Source: Sedimenticola selenatireducens
GTDB taxonomy: Bacteria; Pseudomonadota; Gammaproteobacteria; Chromatiales; Chromatiaceae
NCBI RefSeq assembly: GCF_007625115.1
Contig: NZ_VMNH01000009.1
Coordinates: 62,001 to 126,000, forward strand
DNA length: 64,000 nucleotides
Reading direction: 5' to 3'
The notes under the pieces are model-generated. The model did no database searches. It saw only the letters and a program-made list of their open reading frames with translations, and had not been told where the DNA came from. A program made the translations under genes and the position numbers. How positions within the stretch are numbered: the first letter of the stretch is position 1; every line of letters starts with the position of its first letter. Shown piece by piece: positions 3,314-19,732 of the stretch.

Positions 3314-4447
3314 ATGAACGACGAGCGCAATTTCGAGCAACTCGAAAAGAGACTGGGCGTATCCCGGCGGGACTTTATGAAGTTCTGTACCGGCGTGGCT
3401 GCGACCATGGGTTTGACCACCAGTGATGCCATGGCGATGGCCAATGCGGTAGCCAGCCCAAAGGCGAGACCACCGGTAATTTGGCTGCATGGCCAGGAAT
3501 GCACAGGCTGTACAGAGTCCCTGTTGCGTTCGGAACATCCGACGATTGAGACCCTGATCCTGGATTTGATCTCGCTCGATTACCACGAGACATTGGCAGC
3601 GGCGGCCGGTCATCAAGTGGAGGCTGCTAAGCAGGCCTCCATGAAGGCCAACAAGGGCAAGTACCTGCTGGTCATTGAAGGTGCTACGCCGACCAAGGAT
3701 GGCGGGATCTACTGCAAGATCGGCGGCAAGACCATGCTGGATCATGTGAAAGAAGCGGCCGAAGGTGCGGCAGCGATTGTCTCTATCGGTTCTTGTGCCT
3801 CGTGGGGCGGTATCCCCTCTAGTGGAATCAACCCCACTGAGGCGAAAGGTGCTCCAGAGATCCTCCCTGACAAGACGGTTGTCACCATTCCGGGTTGTCC
3901 GCCAAATCCCTATAACTTCCTCTCCACTGTGCTGCATTTTGTCACCTTCGGCAAACTGCCTGCACTGGATCATCTGAATCGTCCCAAGTTTGCTTACGGT
4001 CGACTGATCCATGAGAACTGCGAACGTCGTCCACATTTTGATGCGGGTCGTTTTGCACTGGAGTTCGGTGATGAGGGGCATAAGCTGGGTTACTGTCTTT
4101 ACAAACTGGGTTGTAAAGGTCCTGAGACCTATGCCAATTGTCCCGCTATCGAGTTTGGCGATGTAGGTGGTGGTGCCTGGCCTGTAGGTGTAGGCCATCC
4201 CTGTTTCGGTTGTACGGAAGAGGGCGTTGGTTTCACCAAGGCGATTCACCAGTTGGCGGATGTGAAGACTCATGCGCCACCCAATGCCTTCCCTTATGTC
4301 AATGATCGTCCAGGCACCAACAGTGCCACACCGGGTGCGGCTGCACTGGTCGGTGGTGTGATCGGTGCTGCAGTTGGTGCGACCGCTATGGCTGCCAAGA
4401 AGCTGGGAAAGAGTAACGAGGCAGGCGACGGCGATAGCCAGGGTTAA
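3314..4447 (+). CDS. hybO: [NiFe] hydrogenase small subunit (Hyd-2 type)
   Basis: Electron-transfer subunit of a periplasmic-facing, membrane-attached hydrogenase. It carries a Tat signal (SRRDFMKF, residues 17-24), the proximal cluster motif ECTGCTES (C63, C66), GSCASWGGIPS, the IPGCPPNP motif and the cysteine-rich C-terminal part (GCKGPETYANCP, GHPCFGCTE) for the medial and distal Fe-S clusters. A hydrophobic Gly/Ala-rich helix near residues 336-355 is the C-terminal membrane anchor. At 377 aa it matches HybO. The gene order small subunit-HybA-HybB-large subunit-protease-HypC-HybE is that of the E. coli hyb operon, which supports the Hyd-2 (group 1c) assignment over a HupSL-cytochrome b type. 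AGGTAGGGG precedes the ATG. Confidence 0.96.
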   Translation: MNDERNFEQLEKRLGVSRRDFMKFCTGVAATMGLTTSDAMAMANAVASPKARPPVIWLHGQECTGCTESLLRSEHPTIETLILDLISLDYHETLAAAAGHQVEAAKQASMKANKGKYLLVIEGATPTKDGGIYCKIGGKTMLDHVKEAAEGAAAIVSIGSCASWGGIPSSGINPTEAKGAPEILPDKTVVTIPGCPPNPYNFLSTVLHFVTFGKLPALDHLNRPKFAYGRLIHENCERRPHFDAGRFALEFGDEGHKLGYCLYKLGCKGPETYANCPAIEFGDVGGGAWPVGVGHPCFGCTEEGVGFTKAIHQLADVKTHAPPNAFPYVNDRPGTNSATPGAAALVGGVIGAAVGATAMAAKKLGKSNEAGDGDSQG

Positions 4448-4456
4448 GGGGGCGTT

Positions 4457-5482
4457 ATGAAACGTAGAGATTTTCTCAAAGCGACTGCAGGGGGTGCAAC
4501 CGCAGCACTCTGCGGTGCCGGCATTGCCGAAGCGCGGGAAAACAAGCCGCCATTAGAGAATGCTATCGGCATACTCTATGACGCGACCTTGTGCGTGGGC
4601 TGTAAAGCCTGTGTGCGCGCCTGTAAAGAGATTAATGGTCTGCCACCCACCCTTATGGGTGAGGATGTTCAGTACGATGCCTCACGGGGTGTTTCTGGCA
4701 CGACTTACAATGTCATCAAGGTCTACAAAAACGGCACTTCAGAAGCAAAAGATAAAGAGATCGATGGTTTTTCTTTTGCCAAGAAGAGTTGTATGCACTG
4801 TGTTGACCCGGCTTGTGTTTCCGGTTGTCCGGTATCGGCGCTGACCAAAAACCCAGTGACGGGTATTGTTCAGTACAACGCGGATACCTGTATCGGTTGT
4901 CGTAACTGCATGGTGGGTTGTCCGTTCAGTATTCCTCAGTACGAGTACCACGATGCCAAAGGCCAGATTCAGAAATGTCTGTTCTGTAACCAGGCGGGTG
5001 TGGAGCGTATTTCTCAGGGGTTGCTACCGGGTTGTGCGGATGTCTGTCCGACCGGTGCCACGCTGTTTGGTACCCGCAAAGAGTTGCTGGCGGAGGCGAA
5101 AAAACGGCTTGCTGCAAAACCGGGTGAGACTTACATCTATCCCAGGGGGCGTGCCTCAGATGAGCTACATACCCATGAGAAGGATGCACCCGCTTATCAA
5201 CAACACATCTATGGTGAGCATGAGGTAGGTGGCACCCAGGTAATGCATATTGCCGGTGTACCACTGAACAAGTTGGGCATGCCCGAACTCCCTGATCGCT
5301 CTTACGCTTCCATCGCAGAAGGGGTCCAGCACACGCTTTATAAAGGCATGATTGCTCCGGCAATTGCCTTGGCGGGACTCGCCTATGTGGTCAAGCGTAA
5401 CACCAGTAACTCGGACCAGGATGACCCAGATGGTCAAAACAGTCGTCGTCCCGGGCCTAACAACGATAGAGGTGAACCATGA
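4457..5482 (+). CDS. hybA: Hydrogenase-2 ferredoxin-like subunit HybA
   Basis: Periplasmic iron-sulfur protein that carries electrons between the hydrogenase heterodimer and the membrane subunit HybB. It has a Tat signal (MKRRDFLKA) and four [4Fe-4S] cysteine groups: CVGCKACVRAC (C46, C49, C52, C56), CMHCVDPACVSGCP, CIGCRNCMVGCP, and CLFCNQAG with CADVCP. A hydrophobic segment (GMIAPAIALAGLAYVV) near the C-terminus is the tail anchor typical of HybA, followed by a charged end. It begins 9 bases after hybO and its last four bases (ATGA) overlap the start of hybB, so the two are translationally coupled. Confidence 0.95.
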   Translation: MKRRDFLKATAGGATAALCGAGIAEARENKPPLENAIGILYDATLCVGCKACVRACKEINGLPPTLMGEDVQYDASRGVSGTTYNVIKVYKNGTSEAKDKEIDGFSFAKKSCMHCVDPACVSGCPVSALTKNPVTGIVQYNADTCIGCRNCMVGCPFSIPQYEYHDAKGQIQKCLFCNQAGVERISQGLLPGCADVCPTGATLFGTRKELLAEAKKRLAAKPGETYIYPRGRASDELHTHEKDAPAYQQHIYGEHEVGGTQVMHIAGVPLNKLGMPELPDRSYASIAEGVQHTLYKGMIAPAIALAGLAYVVKRNTSNSDQDDPDGQNSRRPGPNNDRGEP

Positions 5483-6618
5483 GTGAACATCAACCGGTAG
5501 AAGGTAAGATCCTTACCCTGCCCTTCATGTTCCTGGGCGTCCTGGCTGCGATTGGACTTTATTTTCTCGGCGTACGTTTTGCTGATGGATTGGGTGCAGT
5601 GGCTAACATCAATTCCGGTTACCCCTGGGGTATCTGGGTAGTCTACGATGTGGTGGTTGGTACCGCTCTGGCCTGTGGTGGCTACGCCTTGGCGTTTGTC
5701 ATTTATGTCTTTAATAAGGGTAAATATCATCCACTGATCCGACCGGCCATACTGGCCAGTCTGTTCGGTTATGCGCTGGGTGGTTTTGGTGCCTTCTTTG
5801 ATATGGGGCGCTACTGGCAGTTCTATAACATCGCCATGCCGTCCAACTGGAACTTCAACTCGGTCATGCTCGAAGTAGGTCTTTGCGTCATCACCTACAT
5901 CTTCGTGCTGTTTATCGAGTTTGCTCCAGCCGTGCTCGAAAGAATGGGTGCGAAGAACATGTTGCGTTGGTTGAATAAGGTACTGTTCTTCTTTATCGCG
6001 CTCGGTGTGCTGCTGCCGACCATGCACCAATCTTCCTTGGGATCGCTTTTGATCATCATGGGGGCCAAGGTGCATCCACTGTGGCAGTCACTACAGTGGC
6101 AACCATTAATGGCACTGCTAACCGCCTTGACCATGGGCTTCTCGATTGTAATCTTTGAGGCATCCTTTGCCGCCGTTGGTTTTAATCGCCGTCCTGAAAC
6201 ACCGCTGCTGGCGCGGCTTAGTAAAGCGATCATCGCGTTGATTTCAGTCTTCCTGTTGGTGCGTGTTCTTGAACTGGCTCTGAATGGGAAGCTTGGCTTT
6301 GCCTTCGCGGGTGATCTGGCTGGCAACATGTTCCTGCTGGAGATGGCGCTGTTTATCTTCCCGCTGGTAGTGATGTTGTCACGGGGCAATCGGGACAACG
6401 GTAGGTTACTGCTGTTTGCGGCTGTTTCCTTGTTGTTTGCCGGTGCGCTTTATCGCTTCAATGCGTTCCTGATCGCATTTAATCCAGGTCCAGGTTACAG
6501 CTACTTCCCCTCTGTCCCCGAGATTATGGTGACCGTGGGTATCGTTGCGATTGAAATCATGGCCTATCTGGTCTTCGTTAAGAAACTGCCCGTTCTGCAT
6601 TCTGCTGAACATGCGTAA
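5479..6618 (+). CDS. hybB: Hydrogenase-2 membrane subunit HybB (NrfD/PsrC family)
   Basis: Polytopic inner-membrane protein of 379 aa with about ten hydrophobic segments, of the NrfD/PsrC family that exchanges electrons with the quinone pool without heme. Recognisable features include the short N-terminus before the first helix, NSGYPWGIWVVYDVVVGTALACGGY, and GRYWQFYNI. Its place between hybA and hybC, with a 4-base ATGA overlap onto hybA, marks it as the quinone-reactive subunit of the hydrogenase rather than part of a polysulfide or nitrite reductase. It lets H2 oxidation reduce quinone and may permit reverse flow, as in E. coli Hyd-2. Confidence 0.94.
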   Translation: MSEHQPVEGKILTLPFMFLGVLAAIGLYFLGVRFADGLGAVANINSGYPWGIWVVYDVVVGTALACGGYALAFVIYVFNKGKYHPLIRPAILASLFGYALGGFGAFFDMGRYWQFYNIAMPSNWNFNSVMLEVGLCVITYIFVLFIEFAPAVLERMGAKNMLRWLNKVLFFFIALGVLLPTMHQSSLGSLLIIMGAKVHPLWQSLQWQPLMALLTALTMGFSIVIFEASFAAVGFNRRPETPLLARLSKAIIALISVFLLVRVLELALNGKLGFAFAGDLAGNMFLLEMALFIFPLVVMLSRGNRDNGRLLLFAAVSLLFAGALYRFNAFLIAFNPGPGYSYFPSVPEIMVTVGIVAIEIMAYLVFVKKLPVLHSAEHA

Positions 6619-6654
6619 GGCAGAACAGACATTCCTTAAGTAGGAGAGAATATT

Positions 6655-8355
6655 GTGGCTACTCGTATTACTGTTGATCCCGTAACCCGCATTGAGGGAC
6701 ACTTGCGCATCGATGTTGAAGTAGAAGATGGCAAGGTTAATAACGCCTGGTCCTCCGGCCAGATGTGGCGGGGTATTGAAAAGATCCTGGTGGGCCGTGA
6801 TCCCCGTGATGCCTGGGTCTTCACCCAACGCATCTGCGGCGTTTGCACCACCGTACATGCACTCACCTCGGTGCGTGCAGTTGAGAATGCATTGAATCTT
6901 GAAGTGCCGCTCAATGCACAATTTGTACGTAACCTGATTGTTGCGGCTCAGGCCGTGCATGATCATATCGTCCACTTTTATCATCTCTCTGCCCTTGACT
7001 GGGTGGATGTGGTTTCAGCGCTGGATGCTGATCCGGTTGCGACCTCTAAACTGGCGGAGAGTCTCTCCTCCTGGGGGGGCAATGGGCCCCATGAGATGAA
7101 GGCGGTAAAAGATAAACTGGCGGCCTTCGTTGCCAGTGGTCAACTCGGTCCGTTTGCGAATGGTTACTGGGGACACCCTGCCATGAAGCTGCCGCCGGAA
7201 GTGAATCTACTGGCCGTCGCGCATTATTTGCAAGCGTTGGAAGTGCAGCGCTATGCCAACAAGATTGTCACCATCCTGGGTGGCAAGACGCCACACATCC
7301 AGAACCTGGCTGTCGGTGGTGTCTCCAATTCCATCAATCTGGATAGTCAGTCCACATTGAACATGGAACGTCTGCTGGCGATCAAAGGCTGGATCGATAA
7401 GTTGTCCGACTTTGTTCATAATGTTTATTTGGTAGATGTCCCTGCCGTGGGTGCGTTCTATCTGGATTGGGCCGGATACGGCCAGGGTGTGACGGATTAT
7501 CTTTCTGTTCCTGATATGCCAATCGATACCAAAGGTACAAAGTTTGCGTTGCCCGGCGGTTATATTAAGGGTGGCGATCTGACCACCTTCAAGCCAATCA
7601 CCAGCTATCAGGATGGTTACTTCCGTGAAGGTGTGAAGGAGAGTTCCAAGCACTCCTGGTATGAAGGTGACGCGGCGTTGCATCCCTGGGACGGTGAGAC
7701 TGAGCCCCAGTACACTGACTTCCAGGATGAAGGGCAATACTCCTGGATCAAGTCGCCTACCTTCTACGGAAAACCGGCCCAGGTGGGTCCACTGGCCAAT
7801 GTCCTCTGTATGGCTGCTGCGGGCCATGAGTCCACCGCGAAGCACCTGAAGACAGCCATGGGTACCCTTAATGCGGTTTCTGGTAAAGAGATTCCATTAG
7901 CAGCTCTACACTCTACCATTGGGCGCCATGCAGCGCGTGCAGTACGCACCGCGGTCATGCTGGATAATATGAACGAGCAGTGGAATATGCTGGTAGAGAA
8001 TATCGGCAAAGGTGACACCGATACGTTCAATCAACCGGTGTTCCCTAAAGGTGAGATCAAAGGCTTCGGTTTCCATGAAGCCCCTCGCGGTGTGCTTTCT
8101 CATTGGGTGGTTATCAATGATGGCAAGATCAAGAACTACCAGTGTGTAGTACCCAGTACCTGGAATGCGGGCCCGCGTAATGAGAGTGATGAAATGGGTC
8201 CTTACGAAGCTTCACTGATGGGTAATCCAGTTGCTGATCCTGAGCAACCGCTGGAAGTGTTACGTACGGTTCACTCGTTTGACCCTTGTATCGCCTGCGC
8301 TATCCATCTGGTGGATACCGAGCAACAGGAGATCATCAAGGTTAAAGCCCTCTGA
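6655..8355 (+). CDS. hybC: [NiFe] hydrogenase large subunit (Hyd-2 type)
   Basis: Catalytic subunit holding the Ni-Fe(CN)2CO centre. The L1 motif RICGVC gives C61 and C64, and the L2 motif DPCIACAIH gives C545, C548 and H551. The 15 residues after H551 are the tail expected to be removed by the maturation protease HybD once nickel is inserted. The N-terminal VTRIEGHLRI motif is also present. At 566 aa it matches HybC. Translation starts at a GTG preceded by AGGAGAG. It has no signal peptide and would be exported with the Tat signal of the small subunit. An intrinsic terminator follows only 28 bases after the stop. Confidence 0.96.
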   Translation: MATRITVDPVTRIEGHLRIDVEVEDGKVNNAWSSGQMWRGIEKILVGRDPRDAWVFTQRICGVCTTVHALTSVRAVENALNLEVPLNAQFVRNLIVAAQAVHDHIVHFYHLSALDWVDVVSALDADPVATSKLAESLSSWGGNGPHEMKAVKDKLAAFVASGQLGPFANGYWGHPAMKLPPEVNLLAVAHYLQALEVQRYANKIVTILGGKTPHIQNLAVGGVSNSINLDSQSTLNMERLLAIKGWIDKLSDFVHNVYLVDVPAVGAFYLDWAGYGQGVTDYLSVPDMPIDTKGTKFALPGGYIKGGDLTTFKPITSYQDGYFREGVKESSKHSWYEGDAALHPWDGETEPQYTDFQDEGQYSWIKSPTFYGKPAQVGPLANVLCMAAAGHESTAKHLKTAMGTLNAVSGKEIPLAALHSTIGRHAARAVRTAVMLDNMNEQWNMLVENIGKGDTDTFNQPVFPKGEIKGFGFHEAPRGVLSHWVVINDGKIKNYQCVVPSTWNAGPRNESDEMGPYEASLMGNPVADPEQPLEVLRTVHSFDPCIACAIHLVDTEQQEIIKVKAL

Positions 8356-8383
8356 GCATCTGAACAGCTATAGATGCCTCCTT

Positions 8384-8417
8384 CCCTCCTATCCCTAACA
8401 GGGTGGGAGGGTTTTTT
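8384..8417 (+). terminator. Intrinsic terminator between hybC and hybD
   Basis: CCCTCC (8384-8389) pairs with GGAGGG (8406-8411), with an inner TCCCT/AGGGT helix, followed by TTTTTT at 8412-8417. It lies 28 bases after the hybC stop and so can separate structural-gene expression from the maturation genes hybD-hypC-hybE. Confidence 0.7.
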
Positions 8418-8434
8418 AAAATCTCCCTACTTGG

Positions 8435-8510
8435 TAGGGTGGGCACGCTTTTGTGCCCACGCTGAAAATCCGATATGGGAAAGGTGGGCAAAAACTTCGT
8501 GCCCACCCTA
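8435..8510. repeat. Dispersed palindromic element with TAGGGTGGGCAC termini, copy 1 (76 bp)
   Basis: Begins TAGGGTGGGCAC and ends GTGCCCACCCTA, a perfect 12-base terminal inverted repeat. Each end folds on itself, for example GTGGGCAC-GCTTTT-GTGCCCAC. Related copies are at 27761-27912 and, as one arm, near 18506. It has no coding content and resembles a REP/MITE-like unit. It sits between the hybC terminator and hybD. Confidence 0.8.
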
Positions 8511-8544
8511 CGCGACTTTTTGCCTGACGAAGAGTGGAGACGAA

Positions 8545-9060
8545 ATGAGTGTAGTAGTGATCGGTTTGGGAAATGTTCTGCTGTCCGATGAAGGGTTGGG
8601 TGTACGTGCCGTCGAGTTGCTTGAGCAACGCTACATCCTGCCTGAATCTGTTGAAGTGATTGATGGTGGCACCTCAGCCATGGATCTGCTCAATCCGCTC
8701 AGTAATAACGATCATGTCATCATTGCAGACTCGGTTAAGACCGGTGCAGCACCTTGCACGTTAGTCCGGCTTGCAGATGAACAGGTCCCCAAGTTCTTTC
8801 AGACCAAGATATCGCCGCATCAAATTGGTCTCTCTGATCTGTTGGCCCTGCTGACGGTACAAGGGCAAGCCCCTAAAAAGATCACGATCATTGGCATGGT
8901 ACCTGAATCTTTCGCCACTCATATCGGTTTGACTGAGGGTGTATCCGCCAAGATGGATGAAATGGTCGAACTGTTGGTGGATGAATTGCGTTCGCTTGGC
9001 ATTGCAGTAAAACCCAGGCAGGATGGAGCCCAGGGCTTCTGGGCAGAAGCAGAACAGTAA
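8545..9060 (+). CDS. hybD: Hydrogenase maturation endopeptidase HybD
   Basis: Nickel-sensing peptidase that clips the C-terminal tail from the HybC precursor. From ATG 8545 the protein has 171 aa and opens VVVIGLGNVLLSDEG. The three metal-coordinating residues known from HybD are at the expected places: E16 (DEG), D62 (ADS) and H92 (SPHQ). I prefer ATG 8545 (preceded by GGAGACG) to an upstream in-frame start at 8374, because the extension would lie within the terminator and the palindromic repeat and has no family match. It is separated from hybC by 189 bases carrying those two elements, so it may be expressed at a different level from the structural genes. Confidence 0.94.
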   Translation: MSVVVIGLGNVLLSDEGLGVRAVELLEQRYILPESVEVIDGGTSAMDLLNPLSNNDHVIIADSVKTGAAPCTLVRLADEQVPKFFQTKISPHQIGLSDLLALLTVQGQAPKKITIIGMVPESFATHIGLTEGVSAKMDEMVELLVDELRSLGIAVKPRQDGAQGFWAEAEQ

Positions 9061-9086
9061 ACGGGACTGACAGGTTAGGTGAAGAT

Positions 9087-9395
9087 ATGTGTATCGGAAT
9101 TCCTATGCAAGTTATTGAACAGCGTGATTTGATGGCGTTGTGTCGGGGACGTGGGCGGGAAGAGATGGTCAATACCATGTTGATTGGCCCGCAGGCGCCA
9201 GGTACCTGGGTTTTGAATTTCATTGGTTCGGCTCGGGAAGTGTTGACTGAAGACGAGGCGAAGCAGACCAACAATGCTTTGGATGCCATGGAACAGATTA
9301 TGAGTGGCAATGATGAAGTGGATATTGATACCTATTTTGCCGATCTGACCGATCGGAACCGCACCCCTGGTTCTTTTCCTACCGATAAGAGTTGA
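9087..9395 (+). CDS. hybG: Hydrogenase maturation chaperone HypC/HybG family
   Basis: Small chaperone of 102 aa starting MCIGIPMQV. The essential Cys2 binds HypD and the iron centre and delivers Fe(CN)2CO to the large-subunit precursor. In E. coli, HybG is the HypC paralogue dedicated mainly to Hyd-2, and position inside the hyb cluster supports that name; strictly it is HypC/HybG family. AGGTGAAG precedes the ATG. The general maturation genes hypA, B, D, E and F are not in the window, so they must be elsewhere. Confidence 0.92.
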   Translation: MCIGIPMQVIEQRDLMALCRGRGREEMVNTMLIGPQAPGTWVLNFIGSAREVLTEDEAKQTNNALDAMEQIMSGNDEVDIDTYFADLTDRNRTPGSFPTDKS

Positions 9396-13034: not shown

Positions 13035-13655
13035 ATGGACACGATGACTACCCCTTTGACAGAGCCTATTTATGCACAACCAAGTGCTAGTGTAGATGAT
13101 CACAACAGGGTGCCAGGAAACAGTGGCATCTGGGTCGGTATCTTCTGCGTACTAGTAGAATTTTTTCTGCTCTTTATTGTTTACTTCGTTGCCAAGGCGC
13201 ATCACCCTGAAGCCTTCCAGACTGGACCCGATAAACTCGTCACTCTAGCGGGTGTAACGATTACATTGCTTTTATTGACCAGTGGTTATTGCATGGTTAA
13301 GGCGGTTGAGTCGATCCGAAAGGACGCTGCGACCAGGGCATTCCGCTGGGTCATACTGGCGTTCATCCTGGGTTGTGGTTATCCACTGGTTAAATATTTT
13401 GAAATCCAGTGGAACATGGCACATGGCGTCGATACCAAGGCGGGTATTTTTTACACGGTCTATTACTACCTCACACTTAATCATCTCGTGCATGTGTTCT
13501 GGGGGTTGTTGGGGCTTGGTTGGGTCGCTGTACGCACCCATCGCGGTATCTACACATCAAAAGACTACAGTGGCCTGGAAGCGGCGGCGGTCTATTGGCA
13601 CACCACCGATGTCATCTGGCTGGCGATTTTTCCCTTCTTCTACATATTGAGGTGA
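13035..13655 (+). CDS. norE: Cytochrome c oxidase subunit III-like protein (NorE type)
   Basis: Integral membrane protein of 206 aa of the heme-copper oxidase subunit III family, with about five transmembrane segments and the motifs GIWVGIFCVLVEFFLLF, LNHLVHVFWGLLGLGWV and AAVYWHTTDVIWLAIFPFFYI. Short, solitary subunit III proteins of this kind next to a norF-like gene are called NorE and assist nitric oxide reductase in denitrifiers. No norCB or oxidase subunit I is in the window, so the partner enzyme is unknown. An ATG at 13044 is an alternative start. One base separates it from the next gene. Confidence 0.75.
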   Translation: MDTMTTPLTEPIYAQPSASVDDHNRVPGNSGIWVGIFCVLVEFFLLFIVYFVAKAHHPEAFQTGPDKLVTLAGVTITLLLLTSGYCMVKAVESIRKDAATRAFRWVILAFILGCGYPLVKYFEIQWNMAHGVDTKAGIFYTVYYYLTLNHLVHVFWGLLGLGWVAVRTHRGIYTSKDYSGLEAAAVYWHTTDVIWLAIFPFFYILR

Positions 13656-13656
13656 A

Positions 13657-13950
13657 ATGGGAAAGATGAATATTGGACATGCAGAAAAAATATGGTTGCT
13701 GCTGATTGGCCTGACAGTGGCGGGTGCCTGGTTCGCAGAAACGGGACATCCCGGCTGGCCTTTGACCTTGATTGTTGCAGGACTGATCGCATTTAAAGGT
13801 CGCATGGTAGTCGATCACTACATGGAGATGAGTCGTGCCAATGCGCGCATTCGCCATGTCCTCTATACCTTCATAACGATAGTCCCTCTATTGGTTATCT
13901 TCAGTCATGGTTGGGGTGATCTATTCAGACGGCTGACAACGTTGAACTGA
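13657..13950 (+). CDS. norF: NorF-like small membrane protein (cytochrome oxidase subunit IV family)
   Basis: A 97-aa protein with three hydrophobic segments and the family patterns AWFAETGHPGW and AFKGRMVVDHYMEM, found in prokaryotic cytochrome c oxidase subunit IV and NorF proteins. It starts one base after the norE-like gene and clearly belongs to the same operon. NorF proteins accompany nitric oxide reductase or terminal oxidases, but the catalytic subunits are not nearby. The role here is inferred from the pair. Confidence 0.7.
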   Translation: MGKMNIGHAEKIWLLLIGLTVAGAWFAETGHPGWPLTLIVAGLIAFKGRMVVDHYMEMSRANARIRHVLYTFITIVPLLVIFSHGWGDLFRRLTTLN

Positions 13951-14244: not shown

Positions 14245-14286
14245 TTGATGTTTATCAAGTAATAACCCTGCTTACATTGTTACTTT
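14245..14286 (+). promoter_or_regulatory. Perfect FNR/DNR-type box with matching -10 element
   Basis: TTGATGTTTATCAA (14245-14258) is a perfect TTGAT-N4-ATCAA palindrome. A -10-like TACTTT lies at 14281-14286. If transcription starts near 14293, the box centre is at -41.5, the spacing of a class II FNR-activated promoter. The leader to the ATG at 14469 would be about 175 bases. This predicts induction of the multiheme cytochrome-fccAB genes when oxygen is low (FNR) or with nitric oxide (DNR). Confidence 0.75.
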
Positions 14287-14468
14287 ATTCTGGCGGGAGA
14301 TCTGTAGGGTGGGGTTTTATTGTTATCTAAGGGGCATATTCCCTGAATTCTGATCTCTGACTTTTTAAGCTTGTACGTTCCTGTACGCCATTTTGTTGTG
14401 TTCCGGAATGTTCTATAGCTTCTGCCTTGTTGCAGCGGTTGTGTCTCATAAACTGCAGGGATCACGAG

Positions 14469-16451
14469 ATGTCAAAGATCAGCCTTAAATACTCGACCTG
14501 GTTCGCCTTCCTCTTATTTATTGCCGTTGTTTTCCCTTTATCAGCCACTGAGAATGGTGTGGCCACGTTGCTAGGCGAAGAGATCCCCCACGGCTTTGAC
14601 CCCAAGACGGGCAAGCGCATCATACCGAATGAACGCTGCCTGACATGTCACGGCGATGAGAAACAACAAACTGATGTGCGGGATGATGGCAGTCCGGTCA
14701 AGATCTTTGTTCATCGCAAAGAGATTGAGGCGAGTGTTCACGGCGAACAGAGCTGCAACAGCTGCCACGTAACGATCGAACGCGTCCCTCACCGCAAGGC
14801 ACCGGCCGTGATTGTTGGCTGTATCGACTGTCACAAGGAGACCTGGGACGAATACAAAAATGATCTCGACGGCAAACATGACCGCCTCAAAGTGGTTAAT
14901 GAGCAGATCGACAGCTTTATGCAGTCGGTCCATGCCCAACCCAGCAAACTTGATCAATCACAGACCAATGCCACCTGCTATGACTGTCATGATGCGCATA
15001 ACGTCGGTGAGCTGGGCAGTATTCAGCGTGCCGAGAAACGCCTGAAAAACCCGGAGGTATGTGGACGTTGTCACGAGAAAGAACTGGTCGCCTACAAAAC
15101 CTCTGATCACGGTAAGGCTGTTCTGGAGAAAGGTGACAGCGAGTCGGCGGTCTGTTCTGACTGCCACACCACCCATGACATCAGTTCACCCGAGAGCGAC
15201 AAAGCCAAACGAGCGATCACCAAAAATTGCGGCGACTGTCACGAGGATGCCCAGCGCACTTACTTCGACTCATATCACGGCCAGGTGCATCGTCTCGGCT
15301 ACACCAATACCGCCAAGTGCCACGACTGCCACGGCGGTCATGAGGTTAAGGGTGCAGATGACCCCACTTCAGAGATTCACGCCAACAATCGCCTGGAGAA
15401 CTGTAAGGTCTGTCACACCGAGGCCAATGAGAACTTCCTGACCTTCTGGCCCCATGGTGACGCGGACGACAGAGAAAACTATCCTGGTCTGTGGTTCTTC
15501 AAAATATTCATGCAAATCCTGATCTTCTCGGTCATGGCCTTCTTCTGGGTCCATGTCATGTTGTGGCTCTACCGCGAGGTGATGGACCGCATCCAGGGCA
15601 AGGGCTTTATCGAGGATATGGACAAGCCTGACATCGTCTACTTCCGCCGCTTCCCGCTTGTCTGGCGCTGGATTCATGGGTTGTTCGCGGTCTCTACCAT
15701 GACCCTGATTCTGACCGGTACCACGCTGCTGTTCTCACATACCAGTTGGGCCAAGGCCGTGGTGGTATTCCTGGGTGGTGTTGAGATGGAAGGCATAATT
15801 CACCGTACCGCTGCAGTGATCTGGCTCGGTATCTTTATCGCCCATCTGCTGATCGCCATCAGTAACATCTGGCGTAAGCGTGACGAATTCAAATGGTTTG
15901 GCAGTACATCGATGTTGCCCAATATGAAGGACGCCCGTGATCTGCGGGATATGTTCAAGTGGTTCTTCGGCAAGGGACCACGCCCCGAGTTCTCTCACTG
16001 GACTTACTGGCAGAAGTTTGATTACTGGGCTCCCTTCTGGGGTGCGGCCGTTATTGGTACCTCCGGTATTATGCTGTTCATGCCAGAGAAGACCGCCCTC
16101 TTCCTGCCGGGCTGGATGTTCAATATCGCCACCCTGGTACATGCTGAGGAGGCGCTGCTGGCCGCCATCTTCCTGAACTCGGTACACTTCTTCAACGTGC
16201 ACTTCAGGCCCGAGCGCTTCCCGATGAGTACCACCATCTTCACCGGCGCCATTCCCTTTGAGGAGTTCAGGCATGACCACAGTGAAGAGTACGAGCGGCT
16301 TGTCGCCAGCGGTGAGATCAACAATTACCTGGTCAGACGTCCCTCGCGGCGTGCCGACCTGGCAGCCTCCTTTATCACCAGCGTGTTGATCATGGCGGGT
16401 CTGGCCTTGCTTACCCTGGTGCTGATCGGCCTGGCCACCTCACCGAACTGA
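14469..16451 (+). CDS. Nine-heme cytochrome c fused to a membrane cytochrome b domain
   Basis: A 660-aa protein. After a signal/anchor helix (TWFAFLLFIAVVFPLSA) come nine CxxCH c-heme sites between C57 and about residue 316: CLTCH, CNSCH, CIDCH, CYDCH, CGRCH, CSDCH, CGDCH, CHDCH, CKVCH. Residues from about 339 to the end hold about six hydrophobic segments with candidate b-heme histidines (RWIHGLF, IIHRTAAVIWLGIFIAHLL, LVHAEEALLAAIFLNSVHFF), like cytochrome b561/FdnI-type quinone-reactive subunits. This layout suggests electron transfer between periplasmic donors and quinone. Start ATG 14469 is used rather than an upstream TTG because it gives a normal signal peptide. fccA starts 35 bases after its stop, and fccB follows. 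Confidence 0.9.
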   Translation: MSKISLKYSTWFAFLLFIAVVFPLSATENGVATLLGEEIPHGFDPKTGKRIIPNERCLTCHGDEKQQTDVRDDGSPVKIFVHRKEIEASVHGEQSCNSCHVTIERVPHRKAPAVIVGCIDCHKETWDEYKNDLDGKHDRLKVVNEQIDSFMQSVHAQPSKLDQSQTNATCYDCHDAHNVGELGSIQRAEKRLKNPEVCGRCHEKELVAYKTSDHGKAVLEKGDSESAVCSDCHTTHDISSPESDKAKRAITKNCGDCHEDAQRTYFDSYHGQVHRLGYTNTAKCHDCHGGHEVKGADDPTSEIHANNRLENCKVCHTEANENFLTFWPHGDADDRENYPGLWFFKIFMQILIFSVMAFFWVHVMLWLYREVMDRIQGKGFIEDMDKPDIVYFRRFPLVWRWIHGLFAVSTMTLILTGTTLLFSHTSWAKAVVVFLGGVEMEGIIHRTAAVIWLGIFIAHLLIAISNIWRKRDEFKWFGSTSMLPNMKDARDLRDMFKWFFGKGPRPEFSHWTYWQKFDYWAPFWGAAVIGTSGIMLFMPEKTALFLPGWMFNIATLVHAEEALLAAIFLNSVHFFNVHFRPERFPMSTTIFTGAIPFEEFRHDHSEEYERLVASGEINNYLVRRPSRRADLAASFITSVLIMAGLALLTLVLIGLATSPN

Positions 16452-16486
16452 TGATGGGAGCGGATAACATGCAGAGAGATAACATC

Positions 16487-17065
16487 ATGAATAAAACCGT
16501 TCGCAATCTCCTCGTGGCAGCACTGACACTGCTCCCGGCCACTGTTCTGGCCGATCCAACGGCACAGGCGCTGGCCTTTACCTGTGCGGGCTGCCATGGC
16601 ACGGATGGTTCCAGCGTGGGGCCATCCAGCCCCTCCATCGCCGGCATGGACCCTGAGGTCTTTGTTGATGCCATGCAGGCGTATAAAGCGGATCAGCGCA
16701 ATGCCACTATCATGGATCGTATCGCCAAGGGTTACACCGACGAACAGATCAAAGGCATGTCCTGGTTTTTTGCCAAGCAGCCACTTCTGTTGAAGCCCCA
16801 GAAGCATGATCCTGATCTGGCCAAGCTGGGTGCCGATCTTCACAAGGAGTACTGCGAGAAGTGCCACTCTGACGGAGGACGGGAGAGCGATTCCGGCATT
16901 CTGGCCGGTCAGTGGATGCCCTACCTTGAGTACTCCATGACCGACTTTGTCGAGGGGAGAAGAGCCTATCCACGCAAGATGAAGCGTAAGGTGGATGCCG
17001 TACTGAAAGAGCACGGTAAAAAGGCTCAATCAGCATTGATTCATTTCTACGGCAGCCAGCAGTAA
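16487..17065 (+). CDS. fccA: Diheme cytochrome c subunit of sulfide dehydrogenase
   Basis: Periplasmic cytochrome of 192 aa after start at ATG 16487 (AGAGAGA upstream), with signal peptide MNKTVRNLLVAALTLLPATVLA. It has two class I c-type domains: FTCAGCHGTDG and YCEKCHSDGGRESDSGILAGQW. The size and two-domain build match FccA, the cytochrome subunit of flavocytochrome c sulfide dehydrogenase, and fccB follows 25 bases downstream. It accepts electrons from the FAD of FccB. Other in-frame ATGs at 16451 and 16469 would only lengthen the signal region. Its natural acceptor may here be the multiheme protein encoded just upstream. Confidence 0.9.
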   Translation: MNKTVRNLLVAALTLLPATVLADPTAQALAFTCAGCHGTDGSSVGPSSPSIAGMDPEVFVDAMQAYKADQRNATIMDRIAKGYTDEQIKGMSWFFAKQPLLLKPQKHDPDLAKLGADLHKEYCEKCHSDGGRESDSGILAGQWMPYLEYSMTDFVEGRRAYPRKMKRKVDAVLKEHGKKAQSALIHFYGSQQ

Positions 17066-17090
17066 ACAGGTATCAGGTATAAGGAAAAAG

Positions 17091-18389
17091 ATGATGAGTG
17101 ATTTTAATCGCAGAGATTTTATTCGCATAGCATCCGGCGCCACACTGGCAACAGGTGTTCTGGGATTTCCTGGTCTGTTACTGGCAGCCGGCCCCAAGGT
17201 CGTGATCGTTGGGGGTGGCGTGGGTGGTTGCACTGCGGCCAAGTATCTTCGCAAGCTCGATCCCCGGATTGATGTGACCCTGGTTGAACCGAAGGCCGCC
17301 TACACCTCCTGCTTTATGAGTAACGAAGTACTTAGCGGTGATCGGACTATTGAATCGATCACCTTCGATTACGAAGGCCTAAAGCGTCATGGGGTGAAGA
17401 TCATCAGCGATCGGGTTTCAGTCATTGATCCCGAGAAAAAACAGGTGGTGACCGATGGCGGAGAACGCTTCCCCTATGATGCCTGTGTCGTCTCACCCGG
17501 CGTCGATTTCAAGTGGGACGCGATTGAAGGCTACGATGCGGAGGTGGCTGAAACCATTCCTCATGCCTGGTTTGCCGGTAAACAAACGGTCACTCTGCGC
17601 AAGCAGATTGAATCCATGCCCGAGGGGGGGAAAGTGATCATTGTCGCTCCGCCCAACCCATTCAAGTGCCCCCCAGGACCTTATGAGCGGGCGGCCCAGA
17701 TCGCCATGTACTGTAAGCACCATAAACCCAAGGCGAAGATACTTATTCTCGATCCCAAAGACGCCTTTTCCAAGCAGGGCCTGTTCCGACAGGGTTGGTC
17801 CAAGCTGTATGGATTCGGCACCGAGAACAGCATGATCGAATGGGTCGGTGCTGCCGGGGGTGGTAAAGTGGAGGCGATTGATCCCTCCACAATGACCCTG
17901 CAGGCGGAGATTGAAGAGTTCCAGGCCGATGTCATCAATATCATTCCCCCACAAAAGGCTGGCAAGGTGGCCTTTGCCTCCGACCTGGTGGACGGTGACT
18001 GGTGCCCGGTCGATAAGATGACCTTTGAATCCAAACGTCACCCCGGCATCCATGTCCTGGGTGACGCATCGAACGCAGCCAAGATGCCAAAATCGGCCTA
18101 TGCCGCCAACTCTCAGGCGAAGGTAGCAGCTGCGGCCATTGTGGCCCGATTCAATGGCCTTGAGCCAGGTGATCCGACCTTTGTTAACACCTGCTACAGC
18201 ATCTTGGGCGAAGAGCACGGTATCTCCGTTGCTGCAGTATACCGCCTGGACAAGGAGACAAACGTTATCGAATCGATAAAAGGTTCTGGAGGGTTATCAC
18301 CCATGGATGCCTCGGACGAGCAGCGCAAGCGCGAGGTGACCTATGCACACAGCTGGTTCAAGAACCTGATCCACGACATGATGGGGTGA
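17091..18389 (+). CDS. fccB: Sulfide dehydrogenase flavoprotein subunit
   Basis: Flavoprotein that oxidises sulfide to sulfur or polysulfide in the periplasm. It carries a Tat signal (NRRDFIRIASG, residues 6-16), an FAD fold (VVIVGGGVGGCTAAKYL) and YTSCFMSNEVLSG, in which C74 is the expected site of covalent 8-alpha-cysteinyl FAD. The redox cysteines of the catalytic disulfide fit FKCPPGPYER and NTCYSILG. HVLGDASNAAKMPKSAYAANSQAK is the C-terminal FAD/interface signature. At 432 aa it is full length. It lies 25 bases after fccA. ATG 17094 is an equal alternative start. Confidence 0.94.
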   Translation: MMSDFNRRDFIRIASGATLATGVLGFPGLLLAAGPKVVIVGGGVGGCTAAKYLRKLDPRIDVTLVEPKAAYTSCFMSNEVLSGDRTIESITFDYEGLKRHGVKIISDRVSVIDPEKKQVVTDGGERFPYDACVVSPGVDFKWDAIEGYDAEVAETIPHAWFAGKQTVTLRKQIESMPEGGKVIIVAPPNPFKCPPGPYERAAQIAMYCKHHKPKAKILILDPKDAFSKQGLFRQGWSKLYGFGTENSMIEWVGAAGGGKVEAIDPSTMTLQAEIEEFQADVINIIPPQKAGKVAFASDLVDGDWCPVDKMTFESKRHPGIHVLGDASNAAKMPKSAYAANSQAKVAAAAIVARFNGLEPGDPTFVNTCYSILGEEHGISVAAVYRLDKETNVIESIKGSGGLSPMDASDEQRKREVTYAHSWFKNLIHDMMG

Positions 18390-18545: not shown

Positions 18546-18938
18546 TCAGTGCTCGCCTTTTGTCTTACGTATGCCGGCCAGCCGGTTGCCCTGTTTCTGT
18601 GGCCCGCCCATCGGGAACATATCGTGCAGGTAGCGAGTATTGGCCCGCTCCTTGCCCCATACCTTGCGAAAGTGTTTGATCATGTCGCGTACCTGCGCCT
18701 GTACCCGGTGCTGCTGGTAGTAGTCGCGGATGTAATTGATCACCTCCCAGTGTTCGTCATTCAGGGTCAGCTGCTCTTTCTCCGCAAGGGCTAGGGCAAA
18801 GGCCTCCGACCACTCGTCCATGTCCTGTATATAGCCCTCCTGATCGGTAGCAATCAGGTGGCCACCGATGTCAACGTAGTCGATACGGATGGCAAAAGGG
18901 TTTGTCTGCATGGGTTCTTTTTTGTTCGGCATATTCAT
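18546..18938 (-). CDS. DsrC/TusE-family protein lacking both C-terminal cysteines (RspA-like)
   Basis: A 130-aa DsrC/TusE-fold protein (VDIGGHLIATDQEGYIQDMDEWSEAFALALA, HWEVINYIRDYYQQHRVQ, DMIKHFRKVWGKE, LHDMFPMGGPQKQG). DsrC ends in a flexible arm with two cysteines ten residues apart that carries sulfur as a trisulfide. Here those positions are N118 and E129, and the protein has no cysteine at all. It therefore cannot carry sulfur like DsrC or TusE; cysteine-less members have been proposed as regulatory (RspA). Start ATG 18938 has GAGG nine bases upstream. The upstream HPP gene ends 12 bases before it, so they may be co-transcribed. It faces fccB. Confidence 0.88.
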   Translation of the reverse strand: MNMPNKKEPMQTNPFAIRIDYVDIGGHLIATDQEGYIQDMDEWSEAFALALAEKEQLTLNDEHWEVINYIRDYYQQHRVQAQVRDMIKHFRKVWGKERANTRYLHDMFPMGGPQKQGNRLAGIRKTKGEH

Positions 18939-18949
18939 TTTATTAAACC

Positions 18950-19732
18950 TCACAATGTGCTTTCTATAGGCAGCATCTGCCCTTGGGGCTGTGGTATCCG
19001 ATGATGGCCTAAAGCCAATCCATAAATGCGTAGCAGATCCTCTTCGCTGACATCAATAAATGAGTCTATCTCGGTCAGTGCGTAGACAAGGTCGCTATGG
19101 GCGATCATGCATTTCTCGGTAGGCACTGCCTCTTGCCAGGCCTGAGGGTAGCGCCGCCAGATAAATGGGTAGTTAAAAATCATCGCGATGGTAAGCAGGA
19201 TTACTGCATTTGCCAGCACCGGCGTAACGGCATAACTGTAACCCATCTCCTGCACGGCGCTACCCCCGAGTACCGCCACCAGTGCAGTGGCACCCCCCGG
19301 TGGGTGGAGGCAGTTGAGATAGTGCATGACCACAATCGATAACGATACAGCGATGGCGGATGCCATCAGCGGCGACTCAATCCATCGTGCTACGGTTACA
19401 CCGATGAGTGCAGAAATGATATGTCCCCCCAGTACAGCCCAAGGCTGGGACATAGCGCCATGGGGTACTGCAAACAGCAGCACTGCACTGGCGCTCATTG
19501 AGGCGACTACCAGAGTGGTGCCGTGCATATCCAGCACTTGTTGGCTGATCAACAGGATCATAAAGACACTCACTAATCCACCACCTGCAGAGATCCATTT
19601 CTCGGCATGGCTGGTGGGATGGGCGTTGTTATCAGACAAATAACCGAGTAACCGGGAGGGGTGCAGGTTGGGTATGCACCTTGATGCGGTTCTAGTTACT
19701 GCTAACAACATCAATGGCCAACGCTCTTTCAT
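18950..19732 (-). CDS. HPP-family integral membrane protein
   Basis: A 260-aa protein with about four to five transmembrane helices and the family-naming signature CLHPPGGATAL. Plant members transport nitrite into plastids; bacterial members are mostly uncharacterised, so anion or nitrite transport is only a possibility. I start at ATG 19732, preceded by GGAAG at good spacing; a longer frame would run back into the promoter region. The C-terminal 60 residues are acidic and soluble. It is divergent from the LysR gene at 19871 and lies upstream of the DsrC-like gene on the same strand. Confidence 0.82.
   Translation of the reverse strand: MKERWPLMLLAVTRTASRCIPNLHPSRLLGYLSDNNAHPTSHAEKWISAGGGLVSVFMILLISQQVLDMHGTTLVVASMSASAVLLFAVPHGAMSQPWAVLGGHIISALIGVTVARWIESPLMASAIAVSLSIVVMHYLNCLHPPGGATALVAVLGGSAVQEMGYSYAVTPVLANAVILLTIAMIFNYPFIWRRYPQAWQEAVPTEKCMIAHSDLVYALTEIDSFIDVSEEDLLRIYGLALGHHRIPQPQGQMLPIESTL

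Follow-up and report, generated by a model that had tools for sequence, protein, structure and literature searches.

The cbcL-fccAB locus

The window, by which the whole stretch of DNA analysed is meant, comprises 64,000 bp of the Sedimenticola selenatireducens contig NZ_VMNH01000009.1 (positions 62,001 to 126,000), the host genome having a size of 4.03 Mb. Three neighboring genes of the window are considered here, namely a cbcL-like gene coding for a 660-aa cytochrome with nine c-type heme motifs and a membrane b domain, followed by fccA and fccB, coding for the two subunits of the flavocytochrome c sulfide dehydrogenase (FCSD) FccAB (Table 1). An earlier prediction made from this DNA (hereafter the original prediction) had set the start of the first gene at 14245, which is intergenic; the cbcL-like gene begins at ATG 14469, with TTG 14427 as a possible alternative, and the 660-aa reading spans 14469-16448. 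The first ATG of fccA (16451) overlaps the cbcL stop, and the second, ATG 16487, precedes a signal-peptide-like stretch, so that the predicted gap of 35 bases holds with the second start and turns into an overlap with the first. The gap between fccA and fccB is 25 bases, as had been claimed. The promoter and terminator scan was uninformative, giving three promoter-like and four terminator-like sites versus shuffle means of 3.5 and 4.0.

Table 1 Features of the cbcL-fccAB locus, with positions in the window.
Feature	Position	Strand	Evidence
cbcL-like gene: nonaheme c/di-heme b membrane cytochrome, 660 aa	14469..16451	+	motifs, Pfam, alignment, fold
cbcL-like periplasmic part, first to last CxxCH (residues 57-316)	14637..15416	+	motif scan, alignment
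cbcL-like membrane domain, residues 336-660, six helices, FdnI-like	15474..16448	+	models, Foldseek, alignment
fccA, diheme cytochrome subunit, 204-aa reading	16451..17065 (start may be 16487)	+	CxxCH, 1fcd_C match
fccB, flavoprotein subunit of flavocytochrome c sulfide dehydrogenase	17091..18389	+	Pfam, 3vrd_B/1fcd_A match

The fccA product has 1fcd_C as its best match (E 1.4e-49) and two CxxCH motifs (residues 45 and 135, 204-aa reading), and the fccB product matches 3vrd_B (E 1e-153) and 1fcd_A (E 3.8e-151) as well as the Pfam families PF21706 and PF09242 (FCSD central and flavin-binding domains) with 158.9 and 94.6 bits, respectively. All these matches to solved chains cover their full length, which confirms the predicted identities; judged by sequence, fccA and fccB encode genuine flavocytochrome c subunits. 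FccAB oxidises sulfide in vitro with soluble c cytochromes as acceptors, and its in vivo role is described as unresolved in passages of PMC3368242.

Nonaheme periplasmic domain

The motif scan of the 660-aa reading bore out the nine CxxCH motifs that had been noticed in this one protein (residues 57, 96, 118, 170, 198, 229, 254, 284 and 312), and multiheme c families of Pfam exceed their cut-offs in its N-terminal part. The protein was aligned with those from 49 of the 80 CbcL-like loci described below, sharing 57-88% identity with it, to give 50 rows. Exactly nine CxxCH motifs are present in all 50 sequences, all nine heme-binding histidines of these motifs are invariant, and so are ten further periplasmic histidines (H91, H108, H155, H177, H214, H236, H270, H291, H304 and H329), while no methionine before residue 348 is conserved in at least 45 of the 50 rows and no periplasmic methionine is invariant. 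The conservation of the nine motifs and of the additional histidines exceeds chance. The highest identity to the window protein, 88%, is that of L006, and the nearest row by tree path is a Sedimenticola metagenome-assembled genome (MAG; L005); two Gallionellaceae relatives are 58-59% identical. A PDB sequence search with the window protein gave no useful match, one with the 50-row profile returned mainly multiheme c proteins and no match to the b domain, and a plasmid search for the CbcL-like protein gave no match.

This architecture is that of the known CbcL/MtoC/MtrH family, the members of which, according to parts of a family survey, have 3 to 23 motifs and mostly six helices, with homologues in 15 phyla (PMC6295460); the original prediction missed this membership. 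Geobacter CbcL is described in passages of PMC9129911 as having ten conserved extra histidines, no conserved methionine and nine bis-histidine hemes, followed by six helices with two b hemes.

Membrane b domain

The b domain was recognised through Pfam, just below the cut-off (Ni_hydr_CYTB, PF01292, residues 394-569, E 8e-7, 29.4 bits against a cut-off of 30.1), and through its fold. The AlphaFold2 model of the full-length protein has a mean predicted local distance difference test score (pLDDT) of 69.6, with residues 1-117 mostly poor, and that of residues 336-660 (54 sequences) has a pLDDT of 85.9; each has six long helices in its C-terminal region. In both Foldseek searches a single PDB entry had an E value below 0.001, FdnI, a subunit of formate dehydrogenase-N (1kqf_C; E 2.1e-4 and TM-score 0.74 of the target with the full model, 2.4e-4 and 0.73 with the b domain), followed by hydrogenase cytochrome b (4gd3, 6g94) with E values of 0.4 to 1.9. 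Hhalign matched the b-domain profile to FdnI weakly (probability 20, E 0.0011), and in the alignment with HyaC the last helix is misaligned. The multi-helix, histidine-bearing membrane domain of the original prediction is thus modelled with six helices and an FdnI-like fold.

The heme ligands of FdnI are H18, H57, H155 and H169. The first three align with H403, H445 and H558 of the window protein, and the fourth is ambiguous, since H169 aligns with H578 and H573 fits better by helix spacing, being located 15 residues after H558 versus 14 between the corresponding FdnI histidines. H403, H445, H558, H573 and H578 are all invariant in the 50 rows, which makes them candidate b-heme ligands. As for the two stacked histidine pairs that the original prediction had required, invariant histidines do stand at the FdnI ligand positions (the fourth being H573 or H578), and a stacking of two b hemes in the membrane domain is predicted. 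Invariance in the 50 rows extends to Q515 and K516, which correspond to FdnI Q113 and K114, but of the two only K516 stays invariant in the 54-row set with distant relatives; FdnI Q113 has a role at the quinone site.

Conservation of the gene order

A contig scan seeded with the CbcL-like protein alone found 106 stretches encoding relatives, the best 80 of which were retained. The fccAB genes lie near cbcL in 62 of these 80 loci, so the three-gene order is not unique to the window genome. They are located downstream on the same strand in 51 loci (tandem) and upstream in 11 (divergent). Two of the tandem loci end with their contig inside fccA; of the 49 measured, 43 have a possible fccA start at most 27 bases from the cbcL stop, the distance is 103-124 bases in five loci from Thiodiazotropha, and no start was found in L014. 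The linked loci span three proteobacterial classes, belonging to the Rhodospirillaceae (alphaproteobacteria), the Rhodocyclaceae, Thiobacillaceae, Hydrogenophilaceae and Gallionellaceae (betaproteobacteria) and the Sedimenticolaceae, Chromatiaceae, Thiohalomonadaceae, Ectothiorhodospiraceae and others (gammaproteobacteria).

The open reading frames (ORFs) of the same flanks formed 503 clusters, among which cbcL was represented in 70 loci, a cluster pooling fccA, fccB and other diheme c proteins in 65, and the next commonest one in 13; clusters 4 and 5 lie across fcc or cbcL genes, on the complementary strand, and seem to be shadows of these. A chance neighborhood of cbcL and fccAB was rejected, as no other ORF cluster occurs in more than 13 loci. 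On a quick CbcL tree with 96 rows, adjacency to fcc requires four changes, and the starred clade of 55 rows is fcc-linked with the sole exception of L033, a Methylophaga MAG in which the upstream flank is short and fcc was not found downstream.

Co-occurrence was assessed in 195 genomes of the window's order, with a cut-off of E up to 1e-60 for CbcL-like proteins and PF09242 for fccB. The former were found in 86 genomes and the latter in 159 (157 over the cut-off). A CbcL relative with 52% identity or more is present in 69 genomes, in five of which the match covers part of the query, and all 69 possess fccB. Among the other 126 genomes, 90 do so (Fisher p 2.8e-8, with no correction for relatedness); with relatives near 40% identity fccB was found in 12 of 16 genomes, some via weak matches.

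Several loci differ in their neighbors. In the tubeworm-symbiont CbcL relatives L068-L071 and L074 (about 3400-8000), fccB was not seen nearby and diheme c and ankyrin genes adjoin. In L073, cbcL is accompanied by NapC, ankyrin and another cytochrome c-like gene. L087-L092 form a distant CbcL-like clade (about 40% identity) from the window's order, with fcc nearby in none of the six loci opened.

In other bacteria, mtrH and mtoC are found within mtrAB and mtoAB clusters, as stated in the part of the family survey consulted (PMC6295460), and this would fit extracellular electron transfer, with the CbcL-like protein in an outer-membrane conduit, as MtoC/MtrH, and FccAB feeding or sharing the conduit. 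Such a role is highly improbable, given that the recurrent neighbor of cbcL is fccAB and that no match to the MtrB/PioB porin was found in the window genome, other outer-membrane cytochromes not being searched for; for want of this porin it was rejected as the leading explanation and kept as a minor one.

No published description of cbcL or napC beside fccAB was found in the open PMC literature, which is a weak absence, subscription papers and preprints lying outside the search. The word "sulfide" does not occur in the family survey, although the gene is said there to adjoin c-cytochrome genes in 11 species (PMC6295460), and fccA could be among these neighbors. The CbcL-like protein family is already known, and its dedication to FccAB was not found in the literature searched.

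FccAB classes distinguished by their neighbors

The window genome has three fccB copies, one of each of the neighbor classes described here: the first is CbcL-linked, the second (L086) has the order napC - ankyrin - fccA - fccB with a napC product containing four CxxCH motifs (235.7 bits to PF03264), and around the third (L085) the ORFs of at least 130 aa in 12 kb include no recognised cytochrome partner. Together with 60 loci hand-picked from the order sample, CbcL-adjacent places excluded, the latter two make up a set of 62 other fccB loci. In 28 of them napC, coding for a NapC/NirT tetraheme cytochrome, is located upstream of fccA, with an ankyrin gene in between in 27 of the 28. The remaining 34 have no recognised membrane cytochrome beside them, including L124, the contig of which ends just upstream, and FccAB therefore does not need such a neighbor everywhere.

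On an FccB tree with 121 rows, the four neighbor labels require 8 changes versus a shuffled mean of 60.6, a contrast inflated by near-copies and vertical inheritance of the locus. One group (support 100) consists of the 38 CbcL-linked gammaproteobacterial copies, and a second (support 100) of the 18 alpha- and betaproteobacterial ones, tandem and divergent. Of the 28 rows in the napC group (support 99), four lack a nearby napC, and three gammaproteobacterial copies of the divergent type fall among the partnerless ones. FccAB copies thus largely sort by neighbor into those with CbcL, those with NapC/NirT and ankyrin and those with neither, a division that is new here; the second class was missed by the original prediction.

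The A. vinosum genes Alvin_1092-1095 presumably belong to the napC-ankyrin class. During growth on pyrite, the rise of fccAB (Alvin_1092-1093) is shared by Alvin_1094, which is called uncharacterised, and by Alvin_1095, which is said to be associated with a four-heme cytochrome c (excerpts of PMC11267869). The cytochrome context suggests a bioenergetic role for the ankyrin protein of this class (L086 3017-3958; L111, L122, L125-L128, L130, L135, L136, L138, L142, L143, L145-L151, L153, L155-L157, L160-L162). In L086 this protein begins, by eye, with a signal-peptide-like stretch. An ankyrin protein of a tubeworm symbiont, which may be the product of another gene, was read as a host-interaction factor in the part of PMC7787665 consulted.

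The partnerless loci and those CbcL relatives that sit with diheme c and ankyrin genes instead also speak for a looser association, in which FccAB would deliver electrons to soluble cytochrome c and the CbcL-like protein would be a co-regulated, general hub between quinone and periplasmic cytochromes rather than a dedicated partner. We consider this unlikely, as the neighbor class largely tracks the FccB subfamily and the cbcL-fccAB pairing spans three proteobacterial classes.

Proposed electron route

It is quite reasonable to suggest, with a probability of roughly 0.7, that the CbcL-like protein takes electrons from FccAB and reduces quinone. By homology to the solved enzyme, FccB would oxidise sulfide in the periplasm at its flavin adenine dinucleotide, and FccA would receive the electrons on its two c hemes. 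FccA would then pass them to the nonaheme periplasmic domain, from which they would reach the periplasmic-side b heme, the second b heme and finally quinone. The steps from FccA onwards are suggested by the fold, by the family to which the protein belongs and by the conserved gene order. In this way, the locus would provide FccAB with a quinone-linked outlet besides soluble cytochrome c, and the membrane module linking sulfide oxidation with the quinone pool that had been predicted is supported by its gene context. A parallel case is the NapC/NirT cytochrome upstream of fccA in the second FccAB class.

The midpoint potentials are near -0.27 V for sulfide/sulfur, -0.07 V for menaquinone and +0.1 V for ubiquinone, so the reduction of ubiquinone by sulfide is downhill. 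In the window genome, UbiG and MenD are both over their cut-offs, making either quinone possible, and cytochrome c1 is present. By the same potentials the electron flow from quinol to sulfur would be uphill, and many of the named organisms with CbcL-like loci are members of sulfur-oxidising genera. Both points argue against the reverse direction, in which the CbcL-like protein would oxidise quinol and FccAB would reduce sulfur or polysulfide, or other periplasmic cytochromes would accept the electrons. The in vitro oxidation of sulfide by FccAB (passages of PMC3368242) also disfavors the reverse direction, which we regard as improbable even though menaquinone as well as ubiquinone genes are present in the genome and the CbcL/MtoC/MtrH family was proposed, in part of PMC6295460, to run both ways.

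A number of observations weigh against quinone reduction by FccAB through the CbcL-like protein. Menaquinone, the genes for which are in the genome, is the less favorable acceptor by its potential. Adjacency of cbcL and fccAB is not binding, and no fcc is seen near cbcL in 18 of the 80 loci; in ten of these the flanks exceed 4 kb on the upstream and 2.5 kb on the downstream side, and in the other eight a flank is shorter. The 11 divergent loci are more distant. About 0.4 to 1.3 kb separates the matched portions of their fccA and cbcL, and one of them (L075) has another ORF between cbcL and fcc. Among 16 further CbcL-like loci (L087-L102), chosen mostly for lower identity and two of them (L101 and L102) cut by contig ends, fcc is near in L100 only. 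The gene is patchy in the window's genus, with matches in three of eight sampled genomes, one of them partial; the other five have no CbcL match at 1e-60, and fccB is present in all eight. The absence of a membrane cytochrome from 34 of the 62 other fccB loci points the same way. Geobacter CbcL, the best-characterised member, runs outward from quinol according to passages of PMC9129911, and in D. alkaliphilus, an organism that oxidises sulfide with iron(III) oxide as electron acceptor, the CbcL homologue was likewise proposed to move electrons out of the quinone pool (part of PMC12545173); these two cases also speak for the reverse direction. It is because of the outward-running homologues, the fcc-less loci and the often partnerless FccAB that direction and partnership are put forward as probable and the probability is put no higher.

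It is possible, but doubtful, that FccAB-CbcL is an energy-conserving sulfide:quinone oxidoreductase and that FccAB isoforms are specialised by their electron outlet. As in formate dehydrogenase-N, electrons would cross the membrane via the two stacked b hemes, building membrane potential, and quinone would be reduced near the cytoplasmic side, an energy step wasted by the single-protein sulfide:quinone oxidoreductase (SQR). The quinone site of FdnI is near its cytoplasmic heme and, if this is so here, the step would build membrane potential. The CbcL outlet would then be electrogenic and the one through NapC and ankyrin would not, and copies without a partner would use soluble cytochrome c.

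The pairing of cbcL with fccAB in this sulfur-oxidising bacterium and in many relatives suggests a way for electrons from sulfide to reach the respiratory chain. Should FccAB isoforms be connected to different partners in the membrane, their in vivo role could be tested separately for each partner. Some of the sulfide oxidation that is assigned to cytochrome c in sulfur oxidisers and in the symbionts of animals would then deliver its electrons to the quinone pool, which would bear on energy yield and on the reverse electron flow that serves carbon fixation.

Other genes of the window

A DsrC/TusE-like gene (18546-18953 on the reverse strand; PF04358, 115 bits) is convergent with fccB. Upstream of cbcL, COX3-like and COX4-like genes are located at 13035-13950, a pair which resembles NorE/NorF of nitric oxide reductase. 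A NiFe hydrogenase cluster at 3314-9395 contains genes for the small subunit, a 4Fe-4S protein with a twin-arginine translocation (TAT) signal, a 379-aa protein without a Pfam match, the large subunit, a maturation protease and HypC.

Comparison with known systems

Like members of the CbcL/MtoC/MtrH family, the window protein has c-heme motifs, nine as in CbcL, followed by a six-helix b domain, but its gene is tied to fccAB and not to metal-reduction or porin genes. With G. sulfurreducens CbcL, as described in passages of PMC9129911, it also shares ten additional histidines and the lack of a conserved methionine in the periplasmic part. The likeness to CbcL, MtoC and MtrH is drawn from published descriptions, in a family with an identity range of 28.6-100%.

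The b domain resembles the quinone-reactive di-heme b subunits FdnI and HyaC in fold and histidine positions, the HyaC match being weak. It shares 17-19% identity with FdnI and has six helices and, unlike FdnI, forms one chain with a nine-heme c domain and has a sulfide dehydrogenase as its partner by gene order.

Both FccAB subunits match the chains of the solved enzymes (1fcd, 3vrd) over the full length, with the difference that a membrane module of the quinone type adjoins at the window locus. SQR is a flavoprotein using quinone directly, and the net reaction proposed here, from sulfide to quinone, is the same; in the present case, however, a flavin, eleven c hemes and two b hemes would span three proteins.

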